IMG/VR virus record: IMGVR_UViG_3300013104_000037
Span: 1-42,642 of that record
Source of the DNA: a virus
Strand: one strand, 5' to 3'
DNA: 42,642 nt
The position numbers and the translations under genes were made by a program. Below, piece after piece: positions 6,094 to 29,535 of this stretch; position 1 is the first letter of the stretch, and every line of letters starts with the position of its first letter. The notes under the pieces are model-generated. The model was not told where the DNA came from and did not search any database. It worked only from the letters and a program-made list of their open reading frames with translations.

Positions 6094-6125
6094 AAAAAAA
6101 GCGTTCAGAGGTTATTCTGAACGCT
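6094..6125 (-). terminator. Hairpin with U-tract abutting a start codon
   Basis: AGCGTTCAGA and TCTGAACGCT form a perfect 10-base-pair stem with a 6-base loop. On the minus strand it is followed by seven T and then immediately by the ATG at 6093. It has all parts of an intrinsic terminator, but it lies downstream of a putative late promoter and at the start of a gene, so it could be an attenuator or a processing site. Confidence 0.7.
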
Positions 6126-6161
6126 AAAGAGGGGTAATTTTAAAAGCTGGTAAACGACAGG
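6124..6161 (-). promoter_or_regulatory. Putative phage late promoter (copy 6)
   Basis: CCTGTCGTTTA is read on the minus strand from 6161, two bases after the stop codon of the 621-residue gene. TTTA is followed after 19 bases by CTCTTTAG, a weak -7-like box. The 10-mer CTGTCGTTTA is identical to five other late-region sites. Transcription would start at about the hairpin before 6093. Confidence 0.6.
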
Positions 6162-6162
6162 G

Positions 6163-8028
6163 CTAGAATACGATCAATAGGCCTCGGCCCCGTTGATCAT
6201 CAAAGCCAAATACGTCAAAATCGTGATCACTTACATAATAATAGTTATCGCGTTGTTTAAAAAAATATTTTTTTCCGAAAACTACAATATACTTTGGAAC
6301 AGCGTTTTTTATCCTCAATTCGATCGGTGCGATATTATAGGATTCTACGAACTCAGTAATGGCGACAATTCCACCTACACCATAACTGTCTGTTGAACTT
6401 GTAATGGTCCCACTGACCGTGCGGGGACCCTGTGATTTTTGCGGCATATTTTCTTCAGGCCCTGATTGGCCGGGTGGCCACTCTCTGGTTGCCCAGTCTT
6501 CATAATACAGATCGTATTCGATCTGGCTTACCGCAAGCTCAGAATAATACGCCCTAAAGGCAGCAAAGCCAACAATTTCATTAAAGGCAGGAATAACCGG
6601 CTGAATCTTTACGCTAGTCCGGGAATCGAGAGTAATGGTTCTGCAATCTACTTCTACTTCGATCAAATCCTCTTTTATATTTCTGATAGGATAGGAAACC
6701 TTTTCTGTTATTGCCAACGTATAAAACCCCTCTCGGCTCTTAAAGGCAATTTTTTTGAAAGAGGTCAGCTGTGCAGTAAGCGAACTGTTCATCAGGGCTT
6801 TCAATCTTACCTTTTTGCTATCGTTCAAAAATTTATAATAAAAGATTTCATCATCTCCAATTTCCATTGCCCTGGCTTCAGGGAAAAACTTCCCATCACC
6901 GACATCTTTCATGCCTTTAAACCGTATCAATCGCATATCATTGTGCGGATAGATAGGCTGATTTGTTGCCGGCATTACATAATTATCGACTTTCCTTTCT
7001 TTAAGAGTACTGATATCCATCTCGATTTCTTTCTCGCCATCACCAATGATTACCTGGTTAGTCGGGGCAGACTGCTTTTCATCATTAATTTTGATTTTGA
7101 ACAGTTCATCAGTATCGTCCGGCTTTAAGGTTAAGGTATAGCCAACAATCTCTGGAGGTGCAATTTCTGTAATATCGGATATACAGGTAGTTAAGTCGAT
7201 AGGTTCCCGTGCGGCAATTAATGTTTTTGCGGAATCTATATATGCTTTGCCCTCAAGGAGGTTGAAAGATATCGAAATATTCAGCCGCTGCTTGTACATC
7301 TTAAAAAAATCGGATATCGTGATACCTGGAGGAATTGACGCTAAGGAGGAGTAAATAAACAGACCGTCAATACCACCATAAATATAGATTTCCCTGTTAT
7401 TAGCATCTTCGAAAAAACTTCCGGCCATTTCGAAGCCGAGATATTCAAGTATCCTTTCAAAAATATACGCCAGTTTATAAAAAGCAATAATAGGACTGTT
7501 AAGAGAGAAGCTTTGGCTGGAATGATCCCAATTGTTTACAAACGAATTGTTTGCAGATGGATTGTGAACAGGGAAAAATGCAAATGGATAGTTCTGCGGA
7601 TTAAGGCACGTATCTTTCATTAACGCCGGTGAAGTCTGATCAGCATTTAGTCGGCCCCGACCGTCAAGAGTTGTAATGTTGGTGACGATCGAGTTTTTTG
7701 CCTTGCTGACCAGTGCACCATAATTGATTTTAAGGAGCGCCTTAAAGTCATTTTCTTCAAGACTATAAGTGAGCAGTCCCGCAAAGAAACTTGTTCCGGA
7801 CACAAATGTTTGCACCTCAAGCTCGTAAACATCATTTGAGGATTCAATGAGGTGCCCGCTTTTAAAAAACTCTTTGTTCCAGGCGTTACCCGGCATACTG
7901 AAGGAATAGGTTATATCTTCAAAATAATTTTCATTATCCAAAAAGAGCGGATTGTTCCGCTCTATTGAAATTGATGTGTTAGCAAAAAGGTGCGCTGTCA
8001 AACCAGCTTCGTTTATGATTTGGATCAT
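6163..8028 (-). CDS. Tail/baseplate structural protein (large, unnamed family)
   Basis: A 621-residue protein between the fibre genes and the tail-completion gene. It begins MIQIINEAGLTAHLF, and the segment ITYSFSMPGNAWNKEFF followed by alternating strand-rich stretches suggests a beta-rich baseplate or tail-hub protein. A patch near 490-530 contains charged loops (EDWATREWPPGQSGPEEN). No enzymatic motif was found. In Bacteroidota siphophage-like prophages a gene of this size beside the tape measure is usually the tail-tip/hub protein. The assignment rests on position and composition, not on a recognised domain. Confidence 0.6.
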   Translation of the reverse strand: MIQIINEAGLTAHLFANTSISIERNNPLFLDNENYFEDITYSFSMPGNAWNKEFFKSGHLIESSNDVYELEVQTFVSGTSFFAGLLTYSLEENDFKALLKINYGALVSKAKNSIVTNITTLDGRGRLNADQTSPALMKDTCLNPQNYPFAFFPVHNPSANNSFVNNWDHSSQSFSLNSPIIAFYKLAYIFERILEYLGFEMAGSFFEDANNREIYIYGGIDGLFIYSSLASIPPGITISDFFKMYKQRLNISISFNLLEGKAYIDSAKTLIAAREPIDLTTCISDITEIAPPEIVGYTLTLKPDDTDELFKIKINDEKQSAPTNQVIIGDGEKEIEMDISTLKERKVDNYVMPATNQPIYPHNDMRLIRFKGMKDVGDGKFFPEARAMEIGDDEIFYYKFLNDSKKVRLKALMNSSLTAQLTSFKKIAFKSREGFYTLAITEKVSYPIRNIKEDLIEVEVDCRTITLDSRTSVKIQPVIPAFNEIVGFAAFRAYYSELAVSQIEYDLYYEDWATREWPPGQSGPEENMPQKSQGPRTVSGTITSSTDSYGVGGIVAITEFVESYNIAPIELRIKNAVPKYIVVFGKKYFFKQRDNYYYVSDHDFDVFGFDDQRGRGLLIVF

Positions 8029-8041
8029 AAAATCAAAAAGG

Positions 8042-8944
8042 TTAAATAAAGTTTACTGTGTATCCTTTTGCAATTAGCGAATTGAAGGCGACATCTGAAG
8101 CAGCGGTGCGAGACCCTTTAATGGTAATAGCTCCAATGTTATTTCCAAACGCTCTATTTAACGCAATCAGAACTTTATCGACAACTGCGGAGGCAACAGG
8201 GTTAGCTGGAGACAAAGTGAATGACGCGACATTATCTGTTTCATCATAGATAGGATTAGCATTTGAACCGGAATGTATTACGGACAAAGTACCGCCCTCA
8301 ATATCTATGTTTCTAGCTTTTTTAGGGGAATAGTTCATATCAAATGATACGGCCCCATTAAGTAACAGGGACACCATAGAATTAGTATTTTGAAAAGTAT
8401 TGGCATCTAAAGTAATTTGTCCAGGTAATTCCGAAGAAAGTGCTGCATAAATCAGACTCGTATGGGTTTTCAAAAATGAGATGTCGCCATGCCCAAAGTG
8501 ATTGTTGAAATTGATTCTATCTGCAAAAGATGACACAGCCAATTGCCCAAAATCAAAATTAGTAAATCTGATCGCATTGACATTAGGGGCAAAACCATTT
8601 TGTGGCGACCAATCGGAGCCCGAACCATAGGAACTTATTTCATCAGCATTCAGAATCTGGATAGTTCCATTTATCAAACCCTTGAAATAAATAGTATAAG
8701 CCCCAAATACATTTTGGCTATAGGAGTTATTGGCGATGGGAACAGTTCCCGCACCGTCACTATAAAAAATTCCTTCCCCCTGATTTAAAACTTTAATTGT
8801 TACGGTTTTACCTCCACCCCTTACGACGAAGTTCAACGGCGTAATTTCGTCGCTGTTTTTTTGATATGGTAAACGTACTTCGTTTAACTTTCTTAAATTT
8901 TGATTGTTTGCGCTCGTTGGCAAAACCTGAAAAATTCCTAACAT
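8042..8944 (-). CDS. Putative tail fibre / receptor-binding protein
   Basis: A 300-residue, Ser/Asn/Gly-rich beta-type protein without charge clusters. It contains repeats of strand-turn segments and ends with NSLIAKGYTVNFI, a tail also seen in Bacteroidota BspA-like/LRR surface proteins, where a helix plus 'L..KG.TV' closes each unit. It lies directly downstream of the SGNH-hydrolase fibre gene (11-base gap). A role in host binding fits both the composition and the location. No close family was recognised. Confidence 0.55.
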   Translation of the reverse strand: MLGIFQVLPTSANNQNLRKLNEVRLPYQKNSDEITPLNFVVRGGGKTVTIKVLNQGEGIFYSDGAGTVPIANNSYSQNVFGAYTIYFKGLINGTIQILNADEISSYGSGSDWSPQNGFAPNVNAIRFTNFDFGQLAVSSFADRINFNNHFGHGDISFLKTHTSLIYAALSSELPGQITLDANTFQNTNSMVSLLLNGAVSFDMNYSPKKARNIDIEGGTLSVIHSGSNANPIYDETDNVASFTLSPANPVASAVVDKVLIALNRAFGNNIGAITIKGSRTAASDVAFNSLIAKGYTVNFI

Positions 8945-8955
8945 GTTTTATATTG

Positions 8956-10665
8956 TTAAAATGTGCCTAATTGTTTGAAAATATTGTAAACCTTATTTGC
9001 TATAGCGGTATTACCCAAGGTATTTGCGTGAACAGAATCTGTGGGGCTTAACCATAGTGATGGTGGAAATGTTCCTGCGGCCATCGCTACACTATCTTCA
9101 TAGGTAGGCGTCAGCCCTAAATCCTCTAGTGCTTCGGTGGAAAAATACCTGCGAAGATTAAAATATCTTAATCCAAATTCAGATAACATCAACCTTTCCA
9201 AATCTGCTCTTTCTGCTGGGGTACCGGTGTGTAACCCGATTATGATATAATCCTTAGTGCCATTAAATTCAATTAGAGCTTTATAATATTCCACGAGTTC
9301 CGCGATAGAAGTATAACCTCCATTTTGTCCCATAAAATAAACAGCAGCCTTGCTTTTTCTATAATTTCTGGATGCTTTAGTGTAGATTACTGATCCAGCG
9401 GGGACTGCTTTCGGTGCAGTTGCAGGAACATTTCTCTGCAGGTAGTATTTATTAGAATCAAAGGTTAAAGTACATTCAACCCCATCGACAATACATGGAT
9501 TAATGCTCTGCCCATCACCCTGAAGTAACGGACGTAAAACGTCATCCCCTGGCTTGGCTTTGGCACTTACTATATTGTTACCGATAGCAAGTAAATTTGC
9601 GACCTCGACTTTAGCTGTATTAGCAGGAAGATCAAACCCACCCGTTAAAATACCAGGAACTCCACCCTGTCTGAAGGATATAGTGGGAACAGTTTCCCCA
9701 CCAACACCACAATTGATAATTTTATATTGTGGGCCGACGAGCCCTTGCAAAATCTTAGGCCATGGCGTGACCCCCATAAATTCGTGCCCCTGAGTGAGGC
9801 TATCTCCGAAACATGGGACCAGAATACTATAATTGGAATCTAATACGGATCGCAGGTTTTCAAGTTCCAATTCAGTTTTCTTAAAAGTTCCTTCCAATGT
9901 GCCATCTTCGAGGATAGCAAAAAGAATCTTTTGTTCGCTATCCAGAATTGCATATAAATATCGAGAATTATCCAAGATAGGCGCGCTTGCAGATTCAAAT
10001 ACAACCCGTCCTCTATCATCGACACCTAGAACAATGCGACCATCAATGTCTAATATGCCATAAATGTATTTGGTGTTTTCTGTATTCGGAAACATCAGAT
10101 CGTATATCGGCGACTTGATTTTTGATATCAGTTCTTTCGATAATCCGGCCGCATCCAATTCATCATTCGCGTTAATTGTTAATAGAGGTGTCAAATCCTT
10201 ATCTACGACGCCCCATTTCGCATTAACATTATTTATAAATTTTAAATCTTGAGCTGCTTTCGTTGCATCATCAACTGCATCAATTTTCCCGAGGACTTCA
10301 GTTTGATCAATATTGAAATTTGCAACACCATAATGTAGCCCATTATCCAGGACTATACCTAATGCTCCAGTCACCTCCAAACCTAAAATAGGGAGAAGGC
10401 CTTTTTCTGCAAACCAGAACCTTGGCTCGCTTGCCGGACCAGGATTATCGGTAGGCTTTAAGATTCCAACAGGTTGTGCAGGCTTTTCTAAATTATATTC
10501 CAATTGACTGAATTTTTTTGATCCATTTCCAGCTTTCGTATTAACAAAATTGCCGAACCGAACATAAGCGATCTCGCCATCTAGTATAATAGGATCTTCC
10601 AGAAGCCACTCAGCTTCGGTTTGGATTAAATTTTTTACTCGAGCTTCTAATACAATAGGTGCCAT
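8956..10665 (-). CDS. Tail fibre with C-terminal SGNH/GDSL hydrolase domain
   Basis: A 569-residue protein. The N-terminal ~60 residues (TEAEWLLEDPIILDGEIAYV, then KAGNGSKKFSQLEY) match the small beta domain that opens many phage fibres and tropism proteins. A middle region repeats a strand motif twice (TKYIYGILDIDGRIVLGV and SRYLYAILDSEQKILFAI). The C-terminal domain from about residue 280 is an SGNH hydrolase: FGDSLTQG (Ser block), GVGGET (Gly block), GQNGG (Asn block) and DSVH near 543 (Asp/His block). The expected job is removal of acyl groups from a surface polysaccharide during adsorption. It overlaps nothing and is 2 bases from the next gene upstream. Confidence 0.85.
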   Translation of the reverse strand: MAPIVLEARVKNLIQTEAEWLLEDPIILDGEIAYVRFGNFVNTKAGNGSKKFSQLEYNLEKPAQPVGILKPTDNPGPASEPRFWFAEKGLLPILGLEVTGALGIVLDNGLHYGVANFNIDQTEVLGKIDAVDDATKAAQDLKFINNVNAKWGVVDKDLTPLLTINANDELDAAGLSKELISKIKSPIYDLMFPNTENTKYIYGILDIDGRIVLGVDDRGRVVFESASAPILDNSRYLYAILDSEQKILFAILEDGTLEGTFKKTELELENLRSVLDSNYSILVPCFGDSLTQGHEFMGVTPWPKILQGLVGPQYKIINCGVGGETVPTISFRQGGVPGILTGGFDLPANTAKVEVANLLAIGNNIVSAKAKPGDDVLRPLLQGDGQSINPCIVDGVECTLTFDSNKYYLQRNVPATAPKAVPAGSVIYTKASRNYRKSKAAVYFMGQNGGYTSIAELVEYYKALIEFNGTKDYIIIGLHTGTPAERADLERLMLSEFGLRYFNLRRYFSTEALEDLGLTPTYEDSVAMAAGTFPPSLWLSPTDSVHANTLGNTAIANKVYNIFKQLGTF

Positions 10666-10667
10666 AT

Positions 10668-12305
10668 TTATGAGATTGTTTGTTGAACTATATTTTTTGA
10701 TGGATTTGCAGGCGTTCCTGCAATTATTAAAATTGGTCCTGTATGAGGGGGTTCGAATGGAGATCCTGAAAAAGAGAAATCATCTTCAGCATCAGTCTCC
10801 AGATAATTTTGATTGTTAAATAAATATTGATATTCGAAAGATTGGGCGAATAAAAATTCCCTATCTGCCGGATTTGTCACTGAATCACTAGTGACTTCAA
10901 TTGGTAGAATTGTGTTTTTGATATACCTAAACTGGAGGTTAGATAAAAAGAAATCTTTATTAAACTTTATGAAAGCAGGATCATTAAAGCCCGTTGAGGC
11001 CTTGAACTTATCAGTTCCACTCTTACCGTAAACCTTGAATTCGCCATTTGTAACGCTATAACCCGACTGAAGGACGCGAGAGGCTTTACTTGAAGTTATT
11101 TCCAAAGAAGTTTGGCTTAGGCCAGTAAAACACCTAGAATCAAGCGAACCCCAGCTGCTCCAGTTTAAAAAATATCTCAGGTAACGCTGACCATCACGCC
11201 TGATGAAGTATTCCTGTTTTTCTGATATCCTGCTGCCAGAACTATCGATAATATAAACCTCGTAGCGTTCAAGTTGCTTGGTGCCATTGTAAACATTCCC
11301 CGCACTAACATTAAAGGCGAACTTCCGGTACTGTTCTAAATTAAAGGTAAGATAGCTTACTGAATCGCTGCTACCATCTGAAAAAGTGCGCTTAACCATA
11401 AGTTTTGCACCTGCTTTTGTAGACCTGGTATTAAAAAAATAAAGGAACTGCGGCTGTTCAATCCGGCTATATTGTGACTTTGGACCTTGTTTTAAGAAAC
11501 GATCTACAGACGAAGATCCCGCACTGATAAGGTTTACCAGGCTAACTGATGATTTAGCCTGAAAACTCAAGCCTCCATGTATGACATTAAACACGTTTGA
11601 TCTAGTGAGTTTTCTGACTGAAATCGCATCGCCAAAGCTTTCCGCATATTCAAAATAATATCTACGGGCTGTATTTTTGCACTCCAGTGCCGTGAGACCA
11701 GGTATCTCCAGGCCGTAAATATCAATCTCTGCAGTAATTTTCTGGTGGATCTTATCACCCAGTTCAGCAATGGCCAAGCCACCTGATCCGTTTTGGATAT
11801 CGAGATAGGTTTTGTATATTTCATCATAGCCGGTATGTTTACCGTTCTCGAGAAACAAGCGAAAAAATATACGGTAATTTGGTTTTACAATCTCAGGTTT
11901 TCCAGGAGTGGTATTATCCCCTCCGGAAACAAAATCAAACCCGATCGCCTTTTGTTTTGCAGTAAAAATTATTTTGTAGCCAGAAAAGGTAATGTCAAAA
12001 TCAGTGCTCAGTTGATGGTTTGATTGAAATGATCCAACTACATCGATCCCCGGCAAGGCAGCTCCATTGCCACAGATAAATTGGAAGCCGCTGTCGTCCG
12101 GCACTAAAGCGCTCACCATAGTAATGGTGTTATTTCCATACTTGATGACTATAGAAGTACCTGGAGCAGTAACGGTCCCAACATTAATGGAGTTAACCGC
12201 GTAAACCCCAACCTGCTGAAAGTAGTCTGCACACTGAAATTTTGCGGTGATGAAATCATTGCTGAAGGAGTGAAGCTGAGGCGCTGAGGCAAGGGTTACA
12301 CTCAT
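10668..12305 (-). CDS. Large tail/baseplate protein, unrecognised family
   Basis: A 545-residue protein starting MSVTLASAPQLHSF. The ATG at 12305 overlaps the preceding stop as ATGA, so I prefer it to an ORF start 5 codons earlier. The sequence is rich in aromatic residues and predicted strands (YFEYAESFGDAISVRKL, YLRYFLNWSSWGSLD) with no catalytic motif. It lies between a small tail gene and the SGNH fibre. A baseplate or fibre-base role is likely by position. I do not recognise a named family. Confidence 0.6.
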   Translation of the reverse strand: MSVTLASAPQLHSFSNDFITAKFQCADYFQQVGVYAVNSINVGTVTAPGTSIVIKYGNNTITMVSALVPDDSGFQFICGNGAALPGIDVVGSFQSNHQLSTDFDITFSGYKIIFTAKQKAIGFDFVSGGDNTTPGKPEIVKPNYRIFFRLFLENGKHTGYDEIYKTYLDIQNGSGGLAIAELGDKIHQKITAEIDIYGLEIPGLTALECKNTARRYYFEYAESFGDAISVRKLTRSNVFNVIHGGLSFQAKSSVSLVNLISAGSSSVDRFLKQGPKSQYSRIEQPQFLYFFNTRSTKAGAKLMVKRTFSDGSSDSVSYLTFNLEQYRKFAFNVSAGNVYNGTKQLERYEVYIIDSSGSRISEKQEYFIRRDGQRYLRYFLNWSSWGSLDSRCFTGLSQTSLEITSSKASRVLQSGYSVTNGEFKVYGKSGTDKFKASTGFNDPAFIKFNKDFFLSNLQFRYIKNTILPIEVTSDSVTNPADREFLFAQSFEYQYLFNNQNYLETDAEDDFSFSGSPFEPPHTGPILIIAGTPANPSKNIVQQTIS

Positions 12306-12778
12306 ATTCCGTCCTCCCAATCAGTTGGATTAACTTCGCCATCGTATGCCTTTGAGAAACCAAATTGCACAACCCAACCATAAAGCTGGTCGCCGGTAGG
12401 ACCAATGGCGCCACCACCTGCTTCCAAGCTGTCGCATCCAAAGAAACCTTCAGCATCTGCCAGCATCTTGTTGTAAATCTTATCAGCGATTTTTTTGCAT
12501 AGGCTTACACAAGCGGCTTTTGTTGAAACTTTTTTATCCAGGATAATATATGATCCCTCCCAAGATTCGGAGATATTATCAATTCCTCCAGCCTTATCGA
12601 TATCAGGTGTTAAAAACAGCATCAAAGGAAATTTGCATCCCTCTTTGAGTGCGGTCTGAAGGTCTTCGAAATCCAATTGAAAAAAAGCCCTTTCACGGAA
12701 ATCATCAGGATTGTGGTTAAGTTCCTTTAATTTCTCCGCATAAAGCTCGAAGCGATCGACAATAGCCTGTATTTCCAT
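12302..12778 (-). CDS. Small tail-region protein, function unknown
   Basis: A 158-residue acidic protein. It starts with a helical segment (MEIQAIVDRFELYAEKLKEL) and contains CKFPLMLFLTPDIDKAGGI and a glycine-rich loop (EAGGGAIGPTGDQLYGW). It is the first gene of a transcription unit: a putative late promoter at 12783-12820 places the transcript start at about this ATG, so the mRNA would be leaderless. It overlaps the next gene by ATGA. A tail-terminator or completion role is possible by size and position only. Confidence 0.6.
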   Translation of the reverse strand: MEIQAIVDRFELYAEKLKELNHNPDDFRERAFFQLDFEDLQTALKEGCKFPLMLFLTPDIDKAGGIDNISESWEGSYIILDKKVSTKAACVSLCKKIADKIYNKMLADAEGFFGCDSLEAGGGAIGPTGDQLYGWVVQFGFSKAYDGEVNPTDWEDGI

Positions 12779-12782
12779 AACA

Positions 12783-12820
12783 CGAATTACGGAATAAGAC
12801 TACGCCCAATAAACGACAGG
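12783..12820 (-). promoter_or_regulatory. Putative phage late promoter (copy 5)
   Basis: Minus strand: CCTGTCGTTTA, 17 bases, then CCGTAATTCGTGTTATG, where the last three bases are the start codon at 12778. The spacing from box 1 to ATG (42 bases) equals that of the copies at 17808 and 29535. TTTA-N19-GTAATTCG fits a Bacteroidota promoter geometry. Confidence 0.7.
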
Positions 12821-12824
12821 TAAA

Positions 12825-16142: not shown

Positions 16143-17494
16143 TAGCTTACTACTTTTTTAGTGCCGGCACCTGTGTCAAGTGTTGTGAGGACCTGATCTT
16201 GCACCCCGATCTGAATTTCTGGATCGAAACCATTGTAAGCCTGGGCAAATTTGAAAATACCCATATTGATATCTCTATCAGCTTTCAATAAACTTCGCAT
16301 AAATAGACCGCTTTCGCGGATATTTGAGCCGCCATTGTTTGCGCCGCCGGTATAATCCCCACCGGTATTGCCCTGGCCAACAGTCGCCGGATTGATCAGC
16401 ATTGAGAAAAGTATTTCAGCATTACCCGCTGCAGCATCCGGGAGATACGCATCACTTCTCATTTTATCATCGATGGTTTTGATCACCCAACCACCTACTG
16501 GCTTACCGGTCTGTTTATCGGTTCTGAAAAATGATACAATGGCTTTTTGGGCATTTGTTGCACCGGTTAAATTATCAGTAATCTCATCGATCAGATCATC
16601 TACGATCTCATCCTGTTTTACCTGCTCAAGTGTCTTAAAGTTTGGATACAATTCTTCCAGGTATTCCATTGGAATCTGTACATCATATTTCAAACTCATC
16701 TGGTTTTTGAAAAGTGCCTTTTTATAAGTTGGAATTGATGTAACGATATCCAGCCATCCGCTTTCGCGTGAACTATCCCAGTAGGCGACGGGATAATAAT
16801 CATTTAAGACATCCGGCCAATATTGGGGCATGATGTACTTAAAATTGCTAGTATTTTTCTTGATCGCTTCTATCTGATCATAAAAGCGTATGCTATCAAT
16901 ATGTGGGTAAGTGGCTAATTCTTCATTTTTTGCATCCGGAAAATTACCACTTACAAATACATTGGGGATTTTACCATTTACGTAAGGCGCCAGTCGGCAA
17001 TGTGAAGCTTTGTGGTAATCAATGCCCCAAACTGCGGTTTTATTGCCATTCATCCTGATTTCTGGGAAATTGATCCCGAAATAAGCATAATCCTGCATTA
17101 AGCCAAGGCGAACCATATCAAAATTAGATCGGCGGGTAATTTCATCCCATTCAGGACATTTAACGAGCTGTACAACTTCTTGGCCGTTGTTTTCCATGTC
17201 GACAACTTTATAAGTCATCAATCTTTGTCCGTAGATATACTTTGTGAGCAATTGCAGTCCTGCACGGCCAACTGTACTTTTGCGCATGAGCTTTGCGACA
17301 ATTTTTGGGAAATCATTATTTGTGCCCCAGGGCACATACAGTTTTTTACCAGTTTCTTCTTCAGTGGATAAGGCTCCCTGTTGGTGAAGTGTTTTCGGGG
17401 ATTGTTCCCCAATACTTAGAAGTACTGGCCCGCCCGATCTGTAAGCATACATTGCAGAGCCAGTGCTGCTTCGTTTAATAATCGACTTACTCAT
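16142..17494 (-). CDS. Probable portal protein
   Basis: A 450-residue protein of the size and place of a portal, the dodecameric ring through which DNA is packaged. Features: a Gly/Ser-rich start, a long mixed alpha/beta body, and a C-terminal stretch of LINPATVGQGNTGG with a Gly/Asn-rich loop followed by a long helix (GLFMRSLLKADRDINMGIFK), which resembles the wing/stem region of Bacteroidota portal-like proteins. It overlaps the small Cys-rich gene by ATGA and the connector by one base. It is separated from the terminase genes by a cargo block. Confidence 0.65.
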   Translation of the reverse strand: MSKSIIKRSSTGSAMYAYRSGGPVLLSIGEQSPKTLHQQGALSTEEETGKKLYVPWGTNNDFPKIVAKLMRKSTVGRAGLQLLTKYIYGQRLMTYKVVDMENNGQEVVQLVKCPEWDEITRRSNFDMVRLGLMQDYAYFGINFPEIRMNGNKTAVWGIDYHKASHCRLAPYVNGKIPNVFVSGNFPDAKNEELATYPHIDSIRFYDQIEAIKKNTSNFKYIMPQYWPDVLNDYYPVAYWDSSRESGWLDIVTSIPTYKKALFKNQMSLKYDVQIPMEYLEELYPNFKTLEQVKQDEIVDDLIDEITDNLTGATNAQKAIVSFFRTDKQTGKPVGGWVIKTIDDKMRSDAYLPDAAAGNAEILFSMLINPATVGQGNTGGDYTGGANNGGSNIRESGLFMRSLLKADRDINMGIFKFAQAYNGFDPEIQIGVQDQVLTTLDTGAGTKKVVS

Positions 17495-17766
17495 ACCCAG
17501 TAAATTGGTTGTCCGTTAACTGTAAACATTAGCCTATTGTGGACCGCGTATTTTTTCCCAGTCTCCATATCCTTTATTCCGCACATTTCATGTACATTTT
17601 TACAGGTTGGAGGTAATCCGCAAGAACATGCTTTATCCAGGGAAATCAATTCACCTCCAGTTCCTTTGTCACGGTTACATTTCATAAAATCTATGGAGAA
17701 TGAACCGTAACCGTCCCTGAAATCGTGTTTTCTAATAAGCGTCAAAGCGTTTTTGAGAGCGATCAT
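17491..17766 (-). CDS. Small cysteine-rich phage protein
   Basis: A 91-residue protein starting MIALKNALTLIRKHDF. It has FMKCNRDKGTGGELI and six cysteines in all, most in ACSCGLPPTCKNVHEMCG, so it may bind a metal. The ORF can be extended to 17817, but ATG 17766 is preferred: a late promoter box at 17808 stands exactly 42 bases upstream, the same distance as at the starts at 29493 and 12778. It is coupled to the portal gene by ATGA. Genes with the 'C..KGTGGE' pattern occur in Bacteroidota phages; the function is not known to me. Confidence 0.7.
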   Translation of the reverse strand: MIALKNALTLIRKHDFRDGYGSFSIDFMKCNRDKGTGGELISLDKACSCGLPPTCKNVHEMCGIKDMETGKKYAVHNRLMFTVNGQPIYWV

Positions 17767-17770
17767 ACTA

Positions 17771-17808
17771 CGAATGTCGGAAGCTGTTGATCCTTGGTAA
17801 ACGACAGG
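17771..17808 (-). promoter_or_regulatory. Putative phage late promoter (copy 4)
   Basis: Minus strand: CCTGTCGTTTA, 17 bases, then CCGACATTCGTAGTATG ending in the start codon at 17766. The second block differs by a single base from the copy at 29498-29535. TTTA-N19-GACATTCG fits promoter spacing. It opens the portal-connector-lysis operon. Confidence 0.72.
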
Positions 17809-19742: not shown

Positions 19743-19746
19743 TATT

Positions 19747-19995: not shown

Positions 19996-20015
19996 GAGGC
20001 CGCCCCCTTACGCAG

Positions 20016-20050
20016 AAAAACCTCATTGATTATAATCAAATGAGGTTTTT
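20016..20050. terminator. Bidirectional terminator after large terminase gene
   Basis: AAAAACCTCATT and AAATGAGGTTTTT pair around a 10-base loop, with T-runs in both directions. It lies 18 bases after the terminase stop codon and ends the packaging operon. Confidence 0.85.
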
Positions 20051-20068
20051 GCCTATTAATAATTGAAG

Positions 20069-22447: not shown

Positions 22448-23012
22448 TGGCGACTCCTTCCATTATCCAATTGATGTTGCGTTGTGCCAGATCATCGTTC
22501 ACTATGATCACCCCAACCTCAGTACGGGGATTACGAGTAAGGTTGGCGGAACCCATTAACGTGAGGGAAAGATTTTCACCTTTTATTATGGTAACTTTTG
22601 CATGGCTTTTTGAAAATTTTAGTGAAGAAAAAGTATTGATTGCCTGATGATAGAGATCGGGTTTACGATTGCGAAAACCCTCATCAATTATGCCTACAGC
22701 TGATTTAACTAAACCAGAGGTTAACCAATGGCTGTAAAATCTCAATGCTTCCGGACCAATTGACCAGGTTGAAAAATAAATATCTGCAGCACCTGTTTGT
22801 TGTAGCAAATATTCAATCAGATCAATAGCACTCCAAGCCCCATCAGTTTTAAAAAAAATGGAGATATTGGGTTCTAATTTTCCTATCTTTTGAGAAATCT
22901 GGTTTAGCTTTTTACCCTCCAGAAACTTAAAACCAGTTTCCAGTTTTATGCTGTCCGCTGACTCTTTTGGATCAGAAGCAGTGATGTCCATTGATTTAAA
23001 CAGCATATCCAT
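22440..23012 (-). CDS. Phospholipase D-like protein with a single partial HKD motif
   Basis: A 190-residue protein with a PLD-superfamily C-terminal half: HAKV (His137, Lys139) followed by GSANLTRNPRTEVGV (154-168). The family motif HxKx4D normally has Asp at position 144; here that position is Lys, so activity may be altered. One motif means it would act as a dimer. It sits between a late operon opener and the terminase genes, so it may act on DNA ends or be a nuclease; PLD-type nucleases exist. A TTG start at 23030 is possible; I chose ATG 23012 (23006 is also possible). Confidence 0.75.
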   Translation of the reverse strand: MDMLFKSMDITASDPKESADSIKLETGFKFLEGKKLNQISQKIGKLEPNISIFFKTDGAWSAIDLIEYLLQQTGAADIYFSTWSIGPEALRFYSHWLTSGLVKSAVGIIDEGFRNRKPDLYHQAINTFSSLKFSKSHAKVTIIKGENLSLTLMGSANLTRNPRTEVGVIIVNDDLAQRNINWIMEGVANG

Positions 23013-23679
23013 CGATCCTTTCCAAAACAAGTTTATACCTGGCTTCCCGGGCTTCGATCCGTTGTGTTATTTTTAAACGGGATTTATCGGAGACAGCTGC
23101 TGCTTTAAGTTTCTTTCGGTCCTTAGAAATATTTGGCCCTAGATTAGCTTTTTCCTTAAGCAACTGTTGTAAACTCATGTGCTGCACATCAACAACAACT
23201 TGTTTTTGTTCCTGCTCCCGCAATTGGCCAGTATCGTTCCACTCATCAATTATGGCCCAAGCTTCATTAACTTCATCCATCAGATCGAGTATTTCAATAG
23301 CCGCGTCCAAGCGGTGCTGTTGGCTGTCCATTACCCGTACTGCCTCAAATAATCGCCGTGCTTTGGCGTAATTGAAACGTTTTTTCTCGAGAATCTGTAG
23401 AATTTGGTCAGGAGCAGAATCGTAAGTGATTCGCATTTTTTCTGACGATGGCTCCGGTTCTGGAGCTTCTGAAACAATAATGGGTTTAGGTTCTAAATTC
23501 GCTTTTGAATTTAAACTGGTTAGTGCCGCAGTAAGTTTTGACAGATGAAAAGATGTGCTGCCCGATTTAAATAGGGCCGAAAGGCTATTATTGTCCCCGT
23601 ACTGATCATAAAGCAATTTGCCATGTTCATAGGTACGGTTCGGGTCATTAAGCCAAGAAGTGAGAGACGCAATTGCCAT
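22996..23679 (-). CDS. Helical late protein, function unknown
   Basis: A 227-residue protein, first gene of the packaging operon. It has a Pro/Glu-rich linker (EAPEPEPSSEK) after ~70 residues, then long charged helices (APDQILQILEKKRFNYAKAR, KRFNYAKARRLFEAVRVMDS) likely to be coiled coil. The last ~50 residues are basic (LKAAAVSDKSRLKITQRIEA). The transcript from the late promoter at 23685-23722 would start within a few bases of the ATG. It could be a scaffold-type or DNA-binding packaging factor; nothing in the sequence decides. Confidence 0.6.
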   Translation of the reverse strand: MAIASLTSWLNDPNRTYEHGKLLYDQYGDNNSLSALFKSGSTSFHLSKLTAALTSLNSKANLEPKPIIVSEAPEPEPSSEKMRITYDSAPDQILQILEKKRFNYAKARRLFEAVRVMDSQQHRLDAAIEILDLMDEVNEAWAIIDEWNDTGQLREQEQKQVVVDVQHMSLQQLLKEKANLGPNISKDRKKLKAAAVSDKSRLKITQRIEAREARYKLVLERIDGYAV

Positions 23680-23684
23680 ATTGT

Positions 23685-23722
23685 AAAAATGGCAATTGCA
23701 CTACTGCAGGTAAACGACAGCA
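23685..23722 (-). promoter_or_regulatory. Putative phage late promoter (copy 3)
   Basis: Minus strand: GCTGTCGTTTA, then 17 bases, then a T-rich box (CCATTTTT). The ATG at 23679 lies 43 bases from the start of box 1, one base more than in copies 1, 4 and 5. The second block is weaker than in those copies. Confidence 0.6.
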
Positions 23723-23725
23723 GAA

Positions 23726-24625: not shown

Positions 24626-24641
24626 GCCCTAAAGTATATAA

Positions 24642-24890: not shown

Positions 24891-24986
24891 ATAAAAACGG
24901 TAAGGCCTGCTACTAAGCGTATGAATACCCCTATTGGCTGCTTTTTTCCGACACGTCGAAATTATGGCAGGCCCACGCCTTACCGT
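24891..24986 (-). ncRNA. Large structured leader hairpin before a cargo gene
   Basis: On the minus strand, ACGGTAA and TTACCGT (7 pairs) plus GGCCTGC and GCAGGCC (7 pairs) enclose ~56 bases, with a 6-base bulge on one side. A small inner hairpin includes CGACGTGTCG. The structure is followed by TTTTTAT and then the ATG at 24890. A perfect TAnnTTTG box (TATGTTTG, 25035-25028) lies ~40 bases upstream and may start this RNA. It could be an attenuator or a small RNA ending at its own terminator. Confidence 0.5.
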
Positions 24987-25027
24987 ATACCGGTAGTGCG
25001 AGATATTCAAGAAACTTAGTAGCGGTA

Positions 25028-25035
25028 CAAACATA
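25028..25035 (-). promoter_or_regulatory. Consensus Bacteroidota -7 box
   Basis: TATGTTTG on the minus strand matches TAnnTTTG. It overlaps the T-run of the terminator before it; no clear -33 element was found. It may drive the structured leader and the 82- and 299-residue genes separately from the late operons. Confidence 0.4.
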
Positions 25036-25036
25036 A

Positions 25037-25062
25037 AAAAAACCGCTCAATCCTGAGCGGTT
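25037..25062 (-). terminator. Terminator after the capsid/tail-tube operon
   Basis: AACCGCTCA and TGAGCGGTT pair around ATCC. On the minus strand the hairpin is followed by eight T. It lies 34 bases after the stop of the 60-residue gene. Confidence 0.85.
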
Positions 25063-25095
25063 CTTTAACTAACTAAAACTAAAAAATGAAAATGA

Positions 25096-25278
25096 TTATT
25101 TTTCTTCAGCGATATCGCTTTTATTTTTCTTTACCAGAAAAGGAACGCCGGCTTTATAAAGCTGATTTGCGAGTCCTAAATCAATTTTTGAAAAATCGAT
25201 TATCCCAAACTCAGCAACCTGGTGTTTCCCTTCAGTAATTCCAACTAATTTATATTTCTCTGATACTGCCCTTACCAT
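25096..25278 (-). CDS. Small late protein, function unknown
   Basis: A 60-residue protein starting MVRAVSEKYKLVGITEGKHQ, with FGIIDFSKIDLGLANQLYKA and a lysine/glutamate-rich end. It follows the tail-tube candidate by 12 bases and is the last gene before a terminator. Its size and placement resemble small structural accessory proteins; no family recognised. Confidence 0.6.
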   Translation of the reverse strand: MVRAVSEKYKLVGITEGKHQVAEFGIIDFSKIDLGLANQLYKAGVPFLVKKNKSDIAEEK

Positions 25279-25290
25279 GATCTGTCCCCC

Positions 25291-25836
25291 TTACGCTGCT
25301 GGAGCCAATAAACTTGCCAATGGTACTGTGTAGATCGGTGCTGGGGTACCTGCAGAAGCTTTCACTGTGATAACAGTTTTACGTCCATCAGCTACCTTTT
25401 TACCAGAGCTATAATCTGCAGAGATTAAAAGAGCCGGATCTTCCAATGAACCAACAACGCGGTTTACATTGTTTTTCTCGGTCACAATCCAAACAATCTG
25501 TCTGTTAGCTGTTGCAGCTAAGTGGCCTAATGCAATAGGATCATTACCGGGATAAGAAAATTCATAGCTGTTTTCAAAGCCTTTACCATCATTTGGACCA
25601 ACAATCGTACATTTTAATTCACCCTCTTCTAAAGTACCGTAGTACTCGAAAAATTGTTTACCCGGCTTCATTACGATAGCTGTGTCAATTTCAACCAGGC
25701 TGGCCAGTGTTGTTGCTGTTTCCGGATCATCAAGTACTGGAAAACTTAAGATGTCCTCTACGAAAGCGTAAATCGCTTTCTTTACACCTGCAGGATTTAA
25801 TCGACCTGGAGGATAAGATATTTTTTGAGCATTCAT
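25291..25836 (-). CDS. Candidate major tail tube protein
   Basis: A 181-residue beta-rich protein: PPGRLNPAGVKKAIYAFVED, then YYGTLEEGELKCTIVGPNDG, and a repeating strand pattern ending TVPLASLLAPAA. One copy-rich, moderately sized beta protein shortly after the capsid genes is often the tail tube subunit. The upstream leader has the AATTAACCTCTCA motif seen before other highly expressed genes. A head-decoration protein is the main alternative. Confidence 0.5.
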   Translation of the reverse strand: MNAQKISYPPGRLNPAGVKKAIYAFVEDILSFPVLDDPETATTLASLVEIDTAIVMKPGKQFFEYYGTLEEGELKCTIVGPNDGKGFENSYEFSYPGNDPIALGHLAATANRQIVWIVTEKNNVNRVVGSLEDPALLISADYSSGKKVADGRKTVITVKASAGTPAPIYTVPLASLLAPAA

Positions 25837-25862
25837 TTATAAAAAATTTGAGAGGTTAATTA

Positions 25863-26360
25863 TTAAGATACGGGCGTAAGAATGCTTGATCCCTTAGCTA
25901 AAAGTTTTTCAAGCAATTTCTCATCAGCTGCCAGCTCATCCAATTTTTTCGGACCAACACCAGGAATGAGAAAATCTGTTCCAGTAAGTACATACTGGTC
26001 ACCTTTGATTGAAACAACTTTTTTATCTGGAGCACTGATTTCAGATAAGGCAGCCAATTGAGCTCCTAAATCTGCAATGATAGCGTTAGCGCCATTAAGT
26101 TCATCTTTCAATGAATCGATATCGCCATTATCTAAAACAGATATACGATCGTTCAAACCTTGGATTTCTAAGATATGGCCCTCCTTCAATGCTGTTAAGG
26201 AAGTAATATTAGAATTGGCTTCAGTTAAAGCTTTCTCTAATAATTTAGCGCGATCTGCCTCTGCCTTCTTTTCTGCTACAAGCGTCGTGTATTCAGCGTT
26301 AATTTCTGTGATGTAAGCTAGTGCTTTATCCAGATCAGTAAATTTTTCTACAATTTTCAT
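25863..26360 (-). CDS. Coiled-coil protein following the major capsid gene
   Basis: A 165-residue protein with a ~100-residue coiled coil (DRAKLLEKALTEANSNITSL, DSLKDELNGANAIIADLGAQ) and a small folded C-terminal part. The latter includes FLIPGVGPKKLDELAADEKL, a helix-hairpin-helix-like 'PGVGPKKLDEL' sequence. It may be a capsid-associated or DNA-contacting structural protein. It is separated from the capsid gene by a hairpin (26377-26400). Confidence 0.6.
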   Translation of the reverse strand: MKIVEKFTDLDKALAYITEINAEYTTLVAEKKAEADRAKLLEKALTEANSNITSLTALKEGHILEIQGLNDRISVLDNGDIDSLKDELNGANAIIADLGAQLAALSEISAPDKKVVSIKGDQYVLTGTDFLIPGVGPKKLDELAADEKLLEKLLAKGSSILTPVS

Positions 26361-26372
26361 TTGTGTATTTGA

Positions 26373-26400
26373 AAAAGCCCGGGCTATAAAGGCCCGAGCT
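26373..26400 (-). terminator. Hairpin after the major capsid gene
   Basis: On the minus strand AGCTCGGGC and GCCCGGGCT pair around CTTTATA, followed by TTTTTC. It lies 14 bases after the capsid stop and 13 before the next ATG. It probably lowers, rather than stops, expression of the genes downstream, so the capsid protein is made in excess. Confidence 0.7.
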
Positions 26401-26414
26401 GAGGTTAATATTGA

Positions 26415-27548
26415 TTAAGCTACTAATGAGATATCAGAGCGGAAAACTAAAGCTGGATTCCAGAAACCAACACCTTTATGGAAATCGGTTAATGCCTGAA
26501 TTTCACGGCCTTGTTTCTGAAGATCAAAAATTCCTTGATTTTCAGGGTTCTTGTTCGCAATGATTTTGTTGTCTTCCGGAGTAGTCCAGATAACACCATG
26601 ACCAGTTTGCGATGGTAAACCCACAACCTGGCAATCCGTATCGATAATTGTTTTCTTATCAGATACCTGAGCATAATTTACATTATACTTTTCACGCATA
26701 CCCTGTGCAAAGCGTTGTTCCAATACTGGAGACATTGCGATTCGCTTACATACCCGTTTAGCCAATTCTGGCAAAGTGCCCCTGAAATCTTCAACATATT
26801 CCACGAACTCTGTAGCAACAGTTGGAACGGCACCCATTGTGATCACCTGTACACCAGTCTCCTTTAACTTTTCACGAACACCGTTCATTGAAGCACCAGG
26901 AGCTGTCGCGGTTCCCGCTGTAACGACACCTGTTTTTCCATAGAAAAACTCGTTCATCTCTAAATCTTCATTGTATTTAGGAATTACCAGATTTTCCAAC
27001 CAGTATTTTACAATCGGACAATCTTCAGGTTTCAATGAATTTAAAGCCAAGAAACCTAACCAAGATTCCATTAAATCGTGAGGTACGATCGAAACATCGA
27101 TTTTCAAGTTATCCAATTTAATTACCTGAGGTGTAAAACTCGTGTCGCTGATAGGAGTGAAAGCCTTTTGATAAGCCTGCAAAACGCGAGTAATTTGGGC
27201 GTTAGCCAATTCAATTCTTGTTGCTGTAGTTAAACGAGGTGTGAAAAAGCCTTCAGAAACCGATTGCTGCATTAAAGCGACCCGCAAATCTTTTAAAGAC
27301 TGGGAACCAGCACGATAATAAGCACCATATTCCGTAATAAGATCGGTAATGGTGATGGTACTAATCGCAAGCGATCCCTTCAAATGGAATAGACCAGGGG
27401 CAACAGCAAATGATACCGCCGAGAAAGCGACACCGACAACTAAGGCCTGATCAGGAGCACCAGCTGCTTGAGAAGCAAAGGCACCAAACAAGAACGTTAA
27501 TGCAAATGCAAAAAAAGTTCTAATAGAGAGCGAAAAAATAGATTTCAT
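26415..27548 (-). CDS. Probable major capsid protein with a hydrophobic N-terminus
   Basis: A 377-residue protein directly downstream of the S49 protease/scaffold gene, the standard capsid position. The body has regions typical of HK97-fold capsids: a long helix (NLVIPKYNEDLEMNEFF), VEYVEDFRGTLPELAKRVCK and a C-terminal YFW-rich strand region. The first ~50 residues are unusual: MKSIFSLSIRTFFAFALTFL then GAFASQAAG reads like a signal peptide and is followed by a second hydrophobic stretch (ALVVGVAFSAVSFAVAPG). This part may be removed by the protease as a delta-domain. The leader contains AATTAACCCTCTCA and an A/C-rich run before the ATG. Confidence 0.75.
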   Translation of the reverse strand: MKSIFSLSIRTFFAFALTFLFGAFASQAAGAPDQALVVGVAFSAVSFAVAPGLFHLKGSLAISTITITDLITEYGAYYRAGSQSLKDLRVALMQQSVSEGFFTPRLTTATRIELANAQITRVLQAYQKAFTPISDTSFTPQVIKLDNLKIDVSIVPHDLMESWLGFLALNSLKPEDCPIVKYWLENLVIPKYNEDLEMNEFFYGKTGVVTAGTATAPGASMNGVREKLKETGVQVITMGAVPTVATEFVEYVEDFRGTLPELAKRVCKRIAMSPVLEQRFAQGMREKYNVNYAQVSDKKTIIDTDCQVVGLPSQTGHGVIWTTPEDNKIIANKNPENQGIFDLQKQGREIQALTDFHKGVGFWNPALVFRSDISLVA

Positions 27549-27586
27549 TGTGTGTTTGTTTGTTTTATGAGAGGGTTAATTATTAA

Positions 27587-28021
27587 TTAATTTCCTAAAG
27601 CTTCGTTAGCAGCTTTGTTGTGTGATAAGTTTGAGATCACGGCGGCTGAATCTTTGTTATCAGCGTCAGGCTGAACATCGTCACCAGTTTTACCATCATG
27701 AACAGCGCCGGCATTTTTACCAAAAGCAGCAACCTGACCTTCAAGCTCAGTGATACGGGCGGTAGCAGTAGCAGCATCTGTAGTCATGGTCTGGATAGTA
27801 GTGTTTGCAGTACCAAGATCAGTTGTTAATTGTGTGTTTGCAGTTTGTAAAGCGTCACGTTCAGTGGTTACAGCTGCAGCTTCAGTCATAAAGCTTTCTT
27901 CAACCAGGGCAATATGAGTAATGCCGGCTAAAGTAAGTTCAGCATTTGCTAAACTCATTTGAGACTCAGTCGGAGTTGGTATTCCAGCTAAAGCCAATAC
28001 ATTTTTAAAAGAATGTTCCAT
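27587..28021 (-). CDS. Probable nested scaffold protein (internal start)
   Basis: Within the protease gene the codon ATG at 28021 starts MEHSFKNVLALAGIPTPTES and gives a 144-residue, mostly coiled-coil protein. The bases just before it (AACACAACCCACAAATAAC) form an A/C-rich leader like those of other genes here. This is the lambda C/Nu3 arrangement, where one gene makes both the protease-scaffold fusion and free scaffold. It is an inference; no direct evidence of internal initiation exists. Confidence 0.45.
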   Translation of the reverse strand: MEHSFKNVLALAGIPTPTESQMSLANAELTLAGITHIALVEESFMTEAAAVTTERDALQTANTQLTTDLGTANTTIQTMTTDAATATARITELEGQVAAFGKNAGAVHDGKTGDDVQPDADNKDSAAVISNLSHNKAANEALGN

Positions 28022-28939
28022 GTTATTTGTGGGTTGTGTTTTACTGTTGTTTTTCTTAGGCTGTTTTGCCAATTCACGTACTCTCGAGAGTGCAAAATCA
28101 CGATCTCCCAAATGATCAATCATGCCGAGCTCGAGAGCAACTGTTGCCATGAATGTTTCTCCCTGAAGGATAGTTTTGTTGGTGGACAATCCAGGGCGTT
28201 GTGCCTTCACATCTTCCTGAAAATCCTTGTTTAAAGGATCAAGGGAATTTTTTCTGATCGGAGAGTAATTGCCTTTCAGAGCCTGATTGAAGGTGTTGTT
28301 TTTTAGAACCGATTCGGTAGCATAGATTTCATGAAACTCAACGCCCATTTTTTCAAGGGCTGGTTGAATATTCTGAATGAAATTCATAGTACCAATACTG
28401 CCTATTACTGCTCTAGGATGATCAATAACAATTTCATCAGCGTGCACCGCAATGGCATAAGCGGCACTGGCGACAACATTGCCGCCTAATACTACCAATG
28501 GCTTGGTCCGCTTATCCATCTGGTCAGTTAAGACTTTAATGGCAAAAGCTTGACCACCTCCACTTTCCACAATCATCATTGTACCGATAAAATTGCTGTC
28601 AGCATCAATCTTTTTTAATTCTGCGGCCAGATCCATTGTACCTATAGGCCCGCAAAACTGTGAGTATTTCATGATCGGGCCGCGAAGATTTAAAATAGCA
28701 ACTGATCCTTCCGGAGCAGATGTAAGATCATGGTTCAAATCTTCATCATCGAAACCATCAGCATCCGCGGAAACAAAAAATGATTTATTTCTCAAACGCT
28801 CTGCAGAGTTATCGGTTTGAATGGCGCTTGCCTCACCTTTGAGCAGAGCGGATAGAATAGGTAAATAACCCTGGGCATATTCCGGATGAATAGCCCAAGG
28901 TTCGTTTAAGCCGAGAGTCGCATAATAACCGATGTTCAT
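27587..28939 (-). CDS. S49-family head maturation protease with C-terminal scaffold
   Basis: A 450-residue protein. Residues about 80-290 are a SppA/S49 (ClpP-like) protease: VESGGGQAFA, the nucleophile Ser158 in VVASAAYAIA, and a likely base Lys213 in ESVLKNNTF. It matches lambda gpC-type capsid proteases. The C-terminal ~144 residues after a Lys/Pro linker (QPKKNNSKTQPTNN) are coiled coil, rich in Ala/Thr (LQTANTQLTTDLGTANTTIQ), as in scaffolds. Met307 probably starts a separate scaffold product (see 27587-28021). A late promoter lies at 28976-29013. Confidence 0.85.
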   Translation of the reverse strand: MNIGYYATLGLNEPWAIHPEYAQGYLPILSALLKGEASAIQTDNSAERLRNKSFFVSADADGFDDEDLNHDLTSAPEGSVAILNLRGPIMKYSQFCGPIGTMDLAAELKKIDADSNFIGTMMIVESGGGQAFAIKVLTDQMDKRTKPLVVLGGNVVASAAYAIAVHADEIVIDHPRAVIGSIGTMNFIQNIQPALEKMGVEFHEIYATESVLKNNTFNQALKGNYSPIRKNSLDPLNKDFQEDVKAQRPGLSTNKTILQGETFMATVALELGMIDHLGDRDFALSRVRELAKQPKKNNSKTQPTNNMEHSFKNVLALAGIPTPTESQMSLANAELTLAGITHIALVEESFMTEAAAVTTERDALQTANTQLTTDLGTANTTIQTMTTDAATATARITELEGQVAAFGKNAGAVHDGKTGDDVQPDADNKDSAAVISNLSHNKAANEALGN

Positions 28940-28975
28940 TAATAACTTAATTACAGTTCGTGTGTGTTGTTGTTA

Positions 28976-29013
28976 CAAAGGTGTTTTAAAGTGGATGGCT
29001 GATAAACGACAGA
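28976..29013 (-). promoter_or_regulatory. Putative phage late promoter (copy 2)
   Basis: Minus strand: CTGTCGTTTA, 17 bases, then AACACCTTTGTA. Here the -7-like box is CACCTTTG, the closest of the six to the Bacteroidota TAnnTTTG consensus. The ATG at 28939 is farther away than in copies 1, 4 and 5, so this transcript would have a leader of about 35 bases. It drives the protease-capsid-tube operon. Confidence 0.7.
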
Positions 29014-29016
29014 TTT

Positions 29017-29493
29017 TTAAAAGGGATAAATAGGGGCGATATCATGCGTATTTGCCGCAAACTGGAAAGTATATCCTTTGGCGCCGGATCTTGTGAGTGA
29101 TCCATCAAACTTTGAGGTAAATATAAGCGGATTTGAAGGGGTACCGATCAGGCGTCTAAAGCCTTTTGCATCGGTTAGAAGCACCAAAAAAGGTTGTTGC
29201 TCCATAATCTGCATCAAACTGATATGTTCTGCAGAATCTCCAGGAAGAAAACCGGTAAGAAGTGGTTTGTAAAAGGTTCCGTGTTCATTCGTTTCCGGTT
29301 CCTCAGTATATTGGAGCGTTTCATAAGTGGCATATCCATTGTACCATGCACCAAATTGCTGCAGGCCTAATGGCAGAATACTGCTTCCATTGTTCACTAG
29401 TGGATACGTAGCCACATCATTTCGAGGAATAAAGAGAAAAGAGCGATAACCCCCAGGGTTATACAACGGTTTATTTGGAAAATTGCCGATCAT
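29017..29493 (-). CDS. Late structural protein, function unknown
   Basis: A 158-residue beta-rich protein starting MIGNFPNKPLYNPGGYRSFL. It has FLVLLTDAKGFRRLIGTPSNPLIF and ends in AANTHDIAPIYPF. The 'G..R.IG....PL.F' pattern occurs in small structural proteins of Bacteroidota phages. It may be a tail-tube-like or head-tail joining protein. The putative late promoter at 29498-29535 starts its mRNA at about the ATG. It is the only gene of its unit before the next late promoter. Confidence 0.6.
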   Translation of the reverse strand: MIGNFPNKPLYNPGGYRSFLFIPRNDVATYPLVNNGSSILPLGLQQFGAWYNGYATYETLQYTEEPETNEHGTFYKPLLTGFLPGDSAEHISLMQIMEQQPFLVLLTDAKGFRRLIGTPSNPLIFTSKFDGSLTRSGAKGYTFQFAANTHDIAPIYPF

Positions 29494-29497
29494 AATA

Positions 29498-29535
29498 CGA
29501 ATGTCGGTACATGATTTAGGCTGATAAACGACAGG
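29498..29535 (-). promoter_or_regulatory. Putative phage late promoter (copy 1)
   Basis: Minus strand: CCTGTCGTTTA, 17 bases, then CCGACATTCGTATTATG ending in the start codon at 29493. TTTA-N19-GACATTCG. Box 1 is also followed by TCAGCC, as in copy 2. It is the first promoter of the late region in reading direction. Confidence 0.72.

Follow-up and report, generated by a model that had tools for sequence, protein, structure and literature searches.

Recurrent boxes before the late genes of a Pedobacter-type prophage: predicted phage-specific promoters and a candidate activator

The prophage and its late boxes

The 42,642-nucleotide virus record IMGVR_UViG_3300013104_000037, called here in its full length the window, is a prophage with an integrase gene at one end and a repressor-like gene at the opposite end, and its late genes are preceded by copies of the 10-mer CTGTCGTTTA, the late box that is the subject of this analysis. 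The record is bounded by a 15-bp direct repeat, CCCTTCCGGGGTACA, at 1-15 and 42628-42642, which is probably the core of the attachment site. The late genes, including those for head protease, portal, tail and tape-measure proteins, read leftwards on the minus strand. The closest named relatives are the Duneviridae and Helgolandviridae phages 6H, laban6-1, Ingeline_1 and Leef_1, and a sister prophage, with several proteins more than 90% identical, is held by Pedobacter terrae DSM 17933.

Six exact copies of CTGTCGTTTA occur in the window, all intergenic and all on the minus strand, with none on the plus strand. As Markov models of order 1-3 predict 0.02-0.04 copies per strand, a chance repeat is ruled out as their origin. 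Versions with up to two mismatches are not enriched (35 seen and 35.4 expected in all), thus only the exact copies carry signal. A -7-like element stands at identical spacing, 19 bases after the box, in all six copies, and in the copies at 29525, 17798 and 12810 the block CCGACATTCGTATTATG follows after 17 bases. The ATG of the next gene lies exactly 31 nt past the box in four of the six copies (29525, 23711, 17798 and 12810). A preliminary description of this DNA had recorded six minus-strand copies in the direction of late transcription and a second block in three of them, both of which are borne out with coordinates at most one base off; it overlooked the exact ATG spacing, the hairpins across two of the starts, and the correct first codon of a protein that it listed with 197 residues.

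All on the minus strand, box 1 (29525-29534), which is kept in relatives, precedes a gene of 158 amino acids (29017-29493), the first late gene, present in 30 of 30 relatives and predicted to be leaderless; its -7 element lies at 29498-29505 and the predicted start, 29493, is the A of the ATG. Box 2 (29003-29012) stands before the head maturation protease gene (27587-28939; PHROG 53), with a -7 element at 28976-28983, a predicted start at 28971 and an ATG 32 nt downstream, so that this unit is leadered. The 227-amino-acid gene behind box 3 (box, 23711-23720; gene, 22996-23679; -7 element, 23684-23691) has its predicted start at 23679, again on the A of the ATG, and is predicted to be leaderless. 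The same prediction holds for the 91-amino-acid gene (17491-17766, with its true start at ATG 17766) that box 4 (17798-17807; -7 element, 17771-17778) places at the head of a unit continuing with a portal-like gene, and for the 158-amino-acid tail-region gene (12302-12778) behind box 5 (12810-12819; -7 element, 12783-12790; predicted start, 12778, the A of the ATG). Finally, box 6 (6151-6160; -7 element, 6124-6131; predicted start, 6119) precedes a 143-amino-acid gene (5662-6093) that is followed by the tape-measure gene.

Promoter register and predicted leaderless starts

The register was derived from a matrix of 67 sites, which leaves out the sister prophage and is numbered with the A of the ATG as +1. 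In this matrix CTGTCGTTTA occupies -41 to -32 and TGTCGTTTA occupies -40 to -32; TGTC and the following TTT are invariant at all 67 sites, and the fifth base is G at 65. The spacer carries almost no information, and downstream of it lies a -7 element with the consensus sGAnnTTyG from -13 to -5 (A-11 at 60 sites, T-8 at 64, T-7 at 67 and G-5 at 59), in which G is practically missing at -10 and -9. The box is therefore the more conserved of the two elements, as had been noted from the six copies.

Housekeeping promoters of Bacteroidota, read by sigma-ABfr, have the form TTTG / TAnnTTTG (PMC6847099; PMC7366714), and the mapped promoters of F. johnsoniae show the same -7 positions and the same exclusion of G (PMC6847099). 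Compared with TAHHTTTG at -12 to -5, the late promoters share A-11, T-8, T-7, G-5, the spacing and the no-G rule, with T or C at -6, but position -12 usually has G or C in place of T, and the loose -33 motif is replaced by the invariant box. In addition, the ATG lies 30-31 nt past the box at 48 of 50 sites in four gene classes. The host register of the -7 half and the fixed distance to the ATG together suggest that the box serves as the upstream part of a promoter with its -7 half read by host polymerase, and that most late mRNAs should be leaderless. Leaderless starts, as predicted from this register, are very probable. By comparison, leaderless mRNAs make up 5.5% in F. psychrophilum (PMC9723704), and 5' untranslated regions shorter than 10 nt make up 3.7% in B. 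thetaiotaomicron (PMC7366714).

Conservation among relatives and rarity in host chromosomes

The sister prophage carries these six boxes too, at about 142398-164850 of NZ_FNCH01000009.1. When 2.9 million viral contigs were scanned with the bipartite pattern, further members came to light, in which a contig may have as many as six copies, all of them on a single strand. Unrelated contigs with single chance matches (G002-G004, G009, G013, G014 and G017-G021) have no protein in common with the window and were set aside. In relatives the box precedes the same six genes although the proteins are only about 35-60% identical, and where the exact 10-mer is missing, a copy with one mismatch stands at the same place in most cases. 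Boxes mark these six syntenic positions in nine divergent prophages and in additional relatives from host genomes.

The pattern TGTCGTTTA-N24-TYG occurs four times in the 5.8-Mb genome of P. terrae, each time inside the prophage, and four of its five occurrences in Pedobacter sp. Leaf250 are likewise inside the prophage. The bare 10-mer has eight copies in P. terrae, six of them inside the prophage, and the stricter pattern gave five scattered single matches in 34 genomes that lack the gene for the candidate activator described below. The preliminary description had named an equal frequency of the pattern in host intergenic DNA as speaking against its proposal, which is not what these counts show, and an ordinary housekeeping promoter is ruled out by the near-absence of matches outside prophages (none in P. 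terrae, one in Leaf250 and scattered singles elsewhere). The synteny in divergent relatives, the absence from the host chromosome and the correct promoter register give strong support to the earlier proposal of phage-specific late promoters, and on these grounds the six elements are very likely such promoters.

The candidate activator and the variety of boxes

Just upstream of box 1 lies a gene for a basic protein (29592-30056, minus strand; isoelectric point 9.3), the candidate late activator. This is the protein previously listed with 197 residues; alignment of relatives places its true start at ATG 30056 and its length at 154 amino acids. Homologues are found in all 30 relatives first compared and in five more. 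In 34 of 34 boxed loci the gene lies no more than 1.4 kb upstream of the first box, and in only two of these loci does a box occur within 2 kb upstream of the gene itself. As the gene stands before the first box and is mostly unboxed, it is placed for synthesis ahead of the late genes.

Homologues of this protein were sought in genome sets of the Sphingobacteriaceae, the order and the phylum, and were found in 17 of 401, 17 of 401 (largely the same genomes) and 5 of 396 genomes, respectively. Since the phylum search yielded only four genomes besides P. terrae, the system looks concentrated in, rather than confined to, the Sphingobacteriaceae.

Among these relatives, the box itself varies. A scan for the top word on the late strand, which assumed no box, returned TGTCGTTT or TTGTCGTT, TGTCCTTT, GGTCCTTT or TGTCACAA in 27 of 30 loci, and TGTCCTAT, CGTCCTA or TGTCCTTT in all of five further loci, for a total of 32 of 35. 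The boxes of 6H and Leef_1 were read by inspection as TGTCTTAA and TGTCCTTT. Across related prophages and Ingeline_1, Leef_1, laban and 6H, the variants with the same architecture are TGTCCTTT, TGTCACAA, TGTCTTAA, TGTCCTAT, CGTCCTA and GGTCCTT. The bare TGTCCTTT is short enough for chance matches in host genomes, and for this type only clustering within a prophage was counted. Contig C10 of one genome (G299) carries two related prophages near each other, at about 682-722 kb and 733-774 kb, each with its own 154-amino-acid protein and its own box type (TGTCGTT and TGTCCTT). The presence of two box types within one genome argues that the host does not set the box type.

In the tree of the 154-amino-acid protein, the 16 TGTCG phages form one clade (support 99/98), and changes of the fifth base are at the minimum number. 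The predicted structure of the protein is confident (predicted local distance difference test, pLDDT, 88.8; predicted template modelling score, pTM, 0.83). A Foldseek comparison of this model found no match in the PDB and one in BFVD, which is the Leef_1 homologue. From sequence context, the 154-amino-acid protein is probably the late activator that binds the box, and the combination of phage-specific promoters with this activator is likewise the reading that the comparisons favor.

Hairpins across the start and a second box

At two sites an inverted repeat spans the predicted start on the minus strand. At box 3 the arms GCAATTGCCAT...ATGGCAATTGC (23669-23699) would hide the ATG in read-through RNA, and at box 6 a terminator-like hairpin, AGCGTTCAG...CTGAACGCT, is followed by a T run (6100-6125). 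Hairpins spanning the start recur in 14 relatives for the 227-amino-acid gene (mean cross-start energy, -13.5 kcal/mol; mean z, -4.3) and in 13 relatives for the 143-amino-acid gene (-10.6 kcal/mol; mean z, -3.4), several of the latter closing with a T run in the manner of an intrinsic terminator; the cross-start mean z of the other four gene classes ranges from -1.8 to +0.2. Read-through RNA would fold, while RNA initiated at the promoter would lack the 5' arm, which points to insulation of these units from upstream transcription; that the hairpins do insulate the two units is about evenly balanced. Reading the GCAATTGC pairs at the 227-amino-acid gene as two DNA operators is less likely, as the distance between them ranges from 22 to about 31 bp while the pairing is kept.

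A weaker second box, GGTCGGTTA (29564-29572, minus strand), stands exactly 40 bp upstream of box 1. Such a box is found at the first promoter only, and at none of the other five classes; in relatives the distance is 39 or 40 bp, except in two where it is 50 or 60 bp. These distances are whole helical turns, as expected if bound proteins were to share one face of the DNA. A search of the window against Rfam gave no matches.

Proposed mechanism and alternative explanations

In the proposed mechanism, a temperate, Duneviridae-like siphophage resides as a prophage in a Pedobacter-type host, and host RNA polymerase with the housekeeping sigma-ABfr would read the -7 element (sGAnnTTyG). The phage box TGTCGTTTA (-40 to -32) would replace the host contact at -33 and be bound by a phage-made activator, most likely the basic 154-amino-acid protein whose gene immediately precedes the first late promoter. 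This protein would be expressed from an early transcript and go on to activate the units for capsid, portal, tail and tape-measure proteins. In four of the six units the first base transcribed would be the A of the ATG, giving leaderless mRNAs, and in two units the hairpin across the start would terminate or silence read-through, leaving expression mainly to the unit's own promoter.

Several observations weigh against parts of this mechanism. One relative, G091, is without any box by word scan and inspection alike, the box signal is weaker in Leef_1 and 6H, and two of the six units are leadered. Family searches and fold comparison recognized no DNA-binding domain in the 154-amino-acid protein. 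Furthermore, the portal tree matches the box types as well as the tree of the 154-amino-acid protein does; the match could be a product of the latter gene's linkage to the late module. In another relative (G006), a box with a -7 element is seen about 82 nt before the 154-amino-acid gene (reverse-complement coordinates), as if the gene were autoregulated.

The portal result bears directly on the possibility that the promoters are real but the activator is another late-module protein, such as the 158-amino-acid first late product acting by positive feedback, with the 154-amino-acid protein serving some other function. Linked genes such as portal follow the box type equally well, and several late-module genes are present in 30 of 30 relatives. 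However, such genes sit behind boxes, and the activator would be needed beforehand, while the 154-amino-acid gene, with its basic product, is the only one in the stretch from the early region to the first box that all relatives have kept. Another late-module activator is therefore unlikely, although it is the least improbable of the alternatives. The preliminary description had named the 197-residue protein as one of two possible box-binding factors, a suggestion that fits after correction to 154 residues by tree congruence and position, with the equal congruence of the portal tree as a reservation.

The other factor that it had named was the LuxR-like (GerE) early regulator (41265-41801, minus strand), which carries the GerE helix-turn-helix and is found in 25 of 30 relatives, the rest being mostly contigs that possibly end before the gene. 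Its tree is not congruent with box type: G and C types are intermixed with strong support, with seven box-type changes versus three, and a single TGTCG clade is rejected (log-likelihood 113 lower; approximately unbiased, AU, test, p = 4.9e-7). Close kin serve different boxes (G360/G354 versus G336/G402), and a homologue is encoded by the Bacteroides phage Versailles, in which no such repeated box occurs. Promoters activated by LuxR/GerE proteins have a palindromic site of about 20 bp near -42, a shape not seen in this box of 9-10 bp, which is not palindromic. The LuxR-like protein is thus rejected as the specificity factor on the trees, and its binding to the box is improbable; it could act as an auxiliary factor. 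The family also has four invariant cysteines (C71, C96, C102 and C109 in the protein of the window), pointing to a central, metal-binding region beside the GerE domain.

An alternative sigma factor, phage-made or a host extracytoplasmic function (ECF) sigma, might instead read the box and the -7 element together, given that the upstream box is strong, the -7 element is weaker and the spacing of 17-19 bp is sigma-like. Flavobacterial ECF promoters have a CGT-type -10 box (PMC9723704). The late promoters are not of this type: the -7 element is AnnTTyG, and no factor with regions 2 and 4 was recognized by family scans or by modelling of the LuxR-like protein. The -7 positions and the exclusion of G are those of sigma-ABfr, box types vary among the phages of a single host family and in a genome that holds two prophages, and no sigma-like protein common to all members was recognized. 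In addition, the LuxR-like model, of low confidence, appears to have N-terminal strands rather than a helical sigma-2 domain. An alternative sigma is thus quite unlikely, slightly less so than LuxR-like binding, and of the earlier suggestion of a phage-made activator or alternative sigma, the activator half is supported, whereas the sigma-ABfr register and the low-confidence model speak against the sigma half. Least probable is that the box is an RNA signal for antitermination, processing or translation in long late transcripts. The box often lies a few bases past the preceding stop codon, and hairpins follow it at two sites; but at most sites it lies at fixed distances from a host-type -7 element and from the ATG, no structure is common to all sites, the second box stands at helical-turn spacing, and read-through would be obstructed, not exploited, by the conserved hairpins.

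Other genes of the prophage

A Schlafen/AlbA_2-domain protein (31111-32124, minus strand; Pfam E 6e-13), found among the compared relatives only in the window prophage, is a possible cargo or defence gene. An HNH endonuclease-like protein of 495 amino acids (32321-33808, minus strand) is shared by few relatives. Phage 6H (L086) contains two tandemly repeated stretches around TTATTACGC (31494-32152, reverse complement), which have no relation to the box.

Relation to known systems and significance

The closest known mechanism is that of the T4 middle promoters, where a MotA box replaces the -35 element and the host -10 element is kept, with MotA and AsiA appropriating sigma (PMC2988021). Sigma appropriation of the T4 type includes binding of the activator to sigma region 4. 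The late promoters resemble them in that a phage box stands in for the upstream element and the host downstream element is kept, and a small phage-made activator would be needed in both. The MotA box, (a/t)3TGCTTtA, is centred at -30, while TGTCGTTTA lies at -40 to -32, and T4 uses sigma-70 for middle genes, as opposed to sigma-ABfr, late genes and mostly leaderless starts here. Pfam and PHROG scans of the early proteins revealed no relative of MotA or AsiA, and the fold of the 154-amino-acid protein has no PDB match; as no such relative was found, the mechanism is considered T4-like but is not classed with T4.

Small phage activators that act on host polymerase to control several late units include P2 Ogr, Mu C and Mor, and phi29 p4. 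None of these has a sequence relation to the 154-amino-acid candidate by family search, or a fold match to it in the PDB. The relatives 6H, laban6-1, Ingeline_1 and Leef_1 have homologous virion genes, a LuxR-like gene, a homologue of the 154-amino-acid protein and the same promoter geometry, but other boxes (TGTCTTAA, TGTCACAA and TGTCCTTT); in these phages the homologues are annotated as 'hypothetical protein' and no such promoter is annotated. In the description of Leef_1 and Ingeline_1, the word 'promoter' is absent from the main text and LuxR genes are the only mention. No earlier description of a late promoter or late activator of a Bacteroidota phage was found in the open literature, a search that did not cover subscription papers, and the control of late genes in these phages thus seems undescribed.

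It is tentatively proposed that the 154-amino-acid proteins form a class of phage transcription activators with a new fold, which commandeer the sigma-ABfr polymerase of the host, with boxes that have diversified among Bacteroidota phages (TGTCGTTTA, TGTCCTTT, GGTCCTT, TGTCCTAT, CGTCCTA, TGTCACAA and TGTCTTAA), mainly leaderless late mRNAs and some units insulated by hairpins. The start-straddling hairpins, if this is true, would ensure that only freshly initiated RNA is made or translated, which can now be tested, and leaderless late genes become testable in hosts where leaderless mRNA is rare (about 5%). Together, the boxes and the candidate activator offer a testable promoter class and regulator family for temperate phages of Pedobacter, related Sphingobacteriaceae, Flavobacterium, Cellulophaga and Polaribacter. 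The natural variants of box and regulator pairs are material for a specificity code, and they might yield mutually orthogonal promoters under phage control for use in bacteria with no genetic tools.

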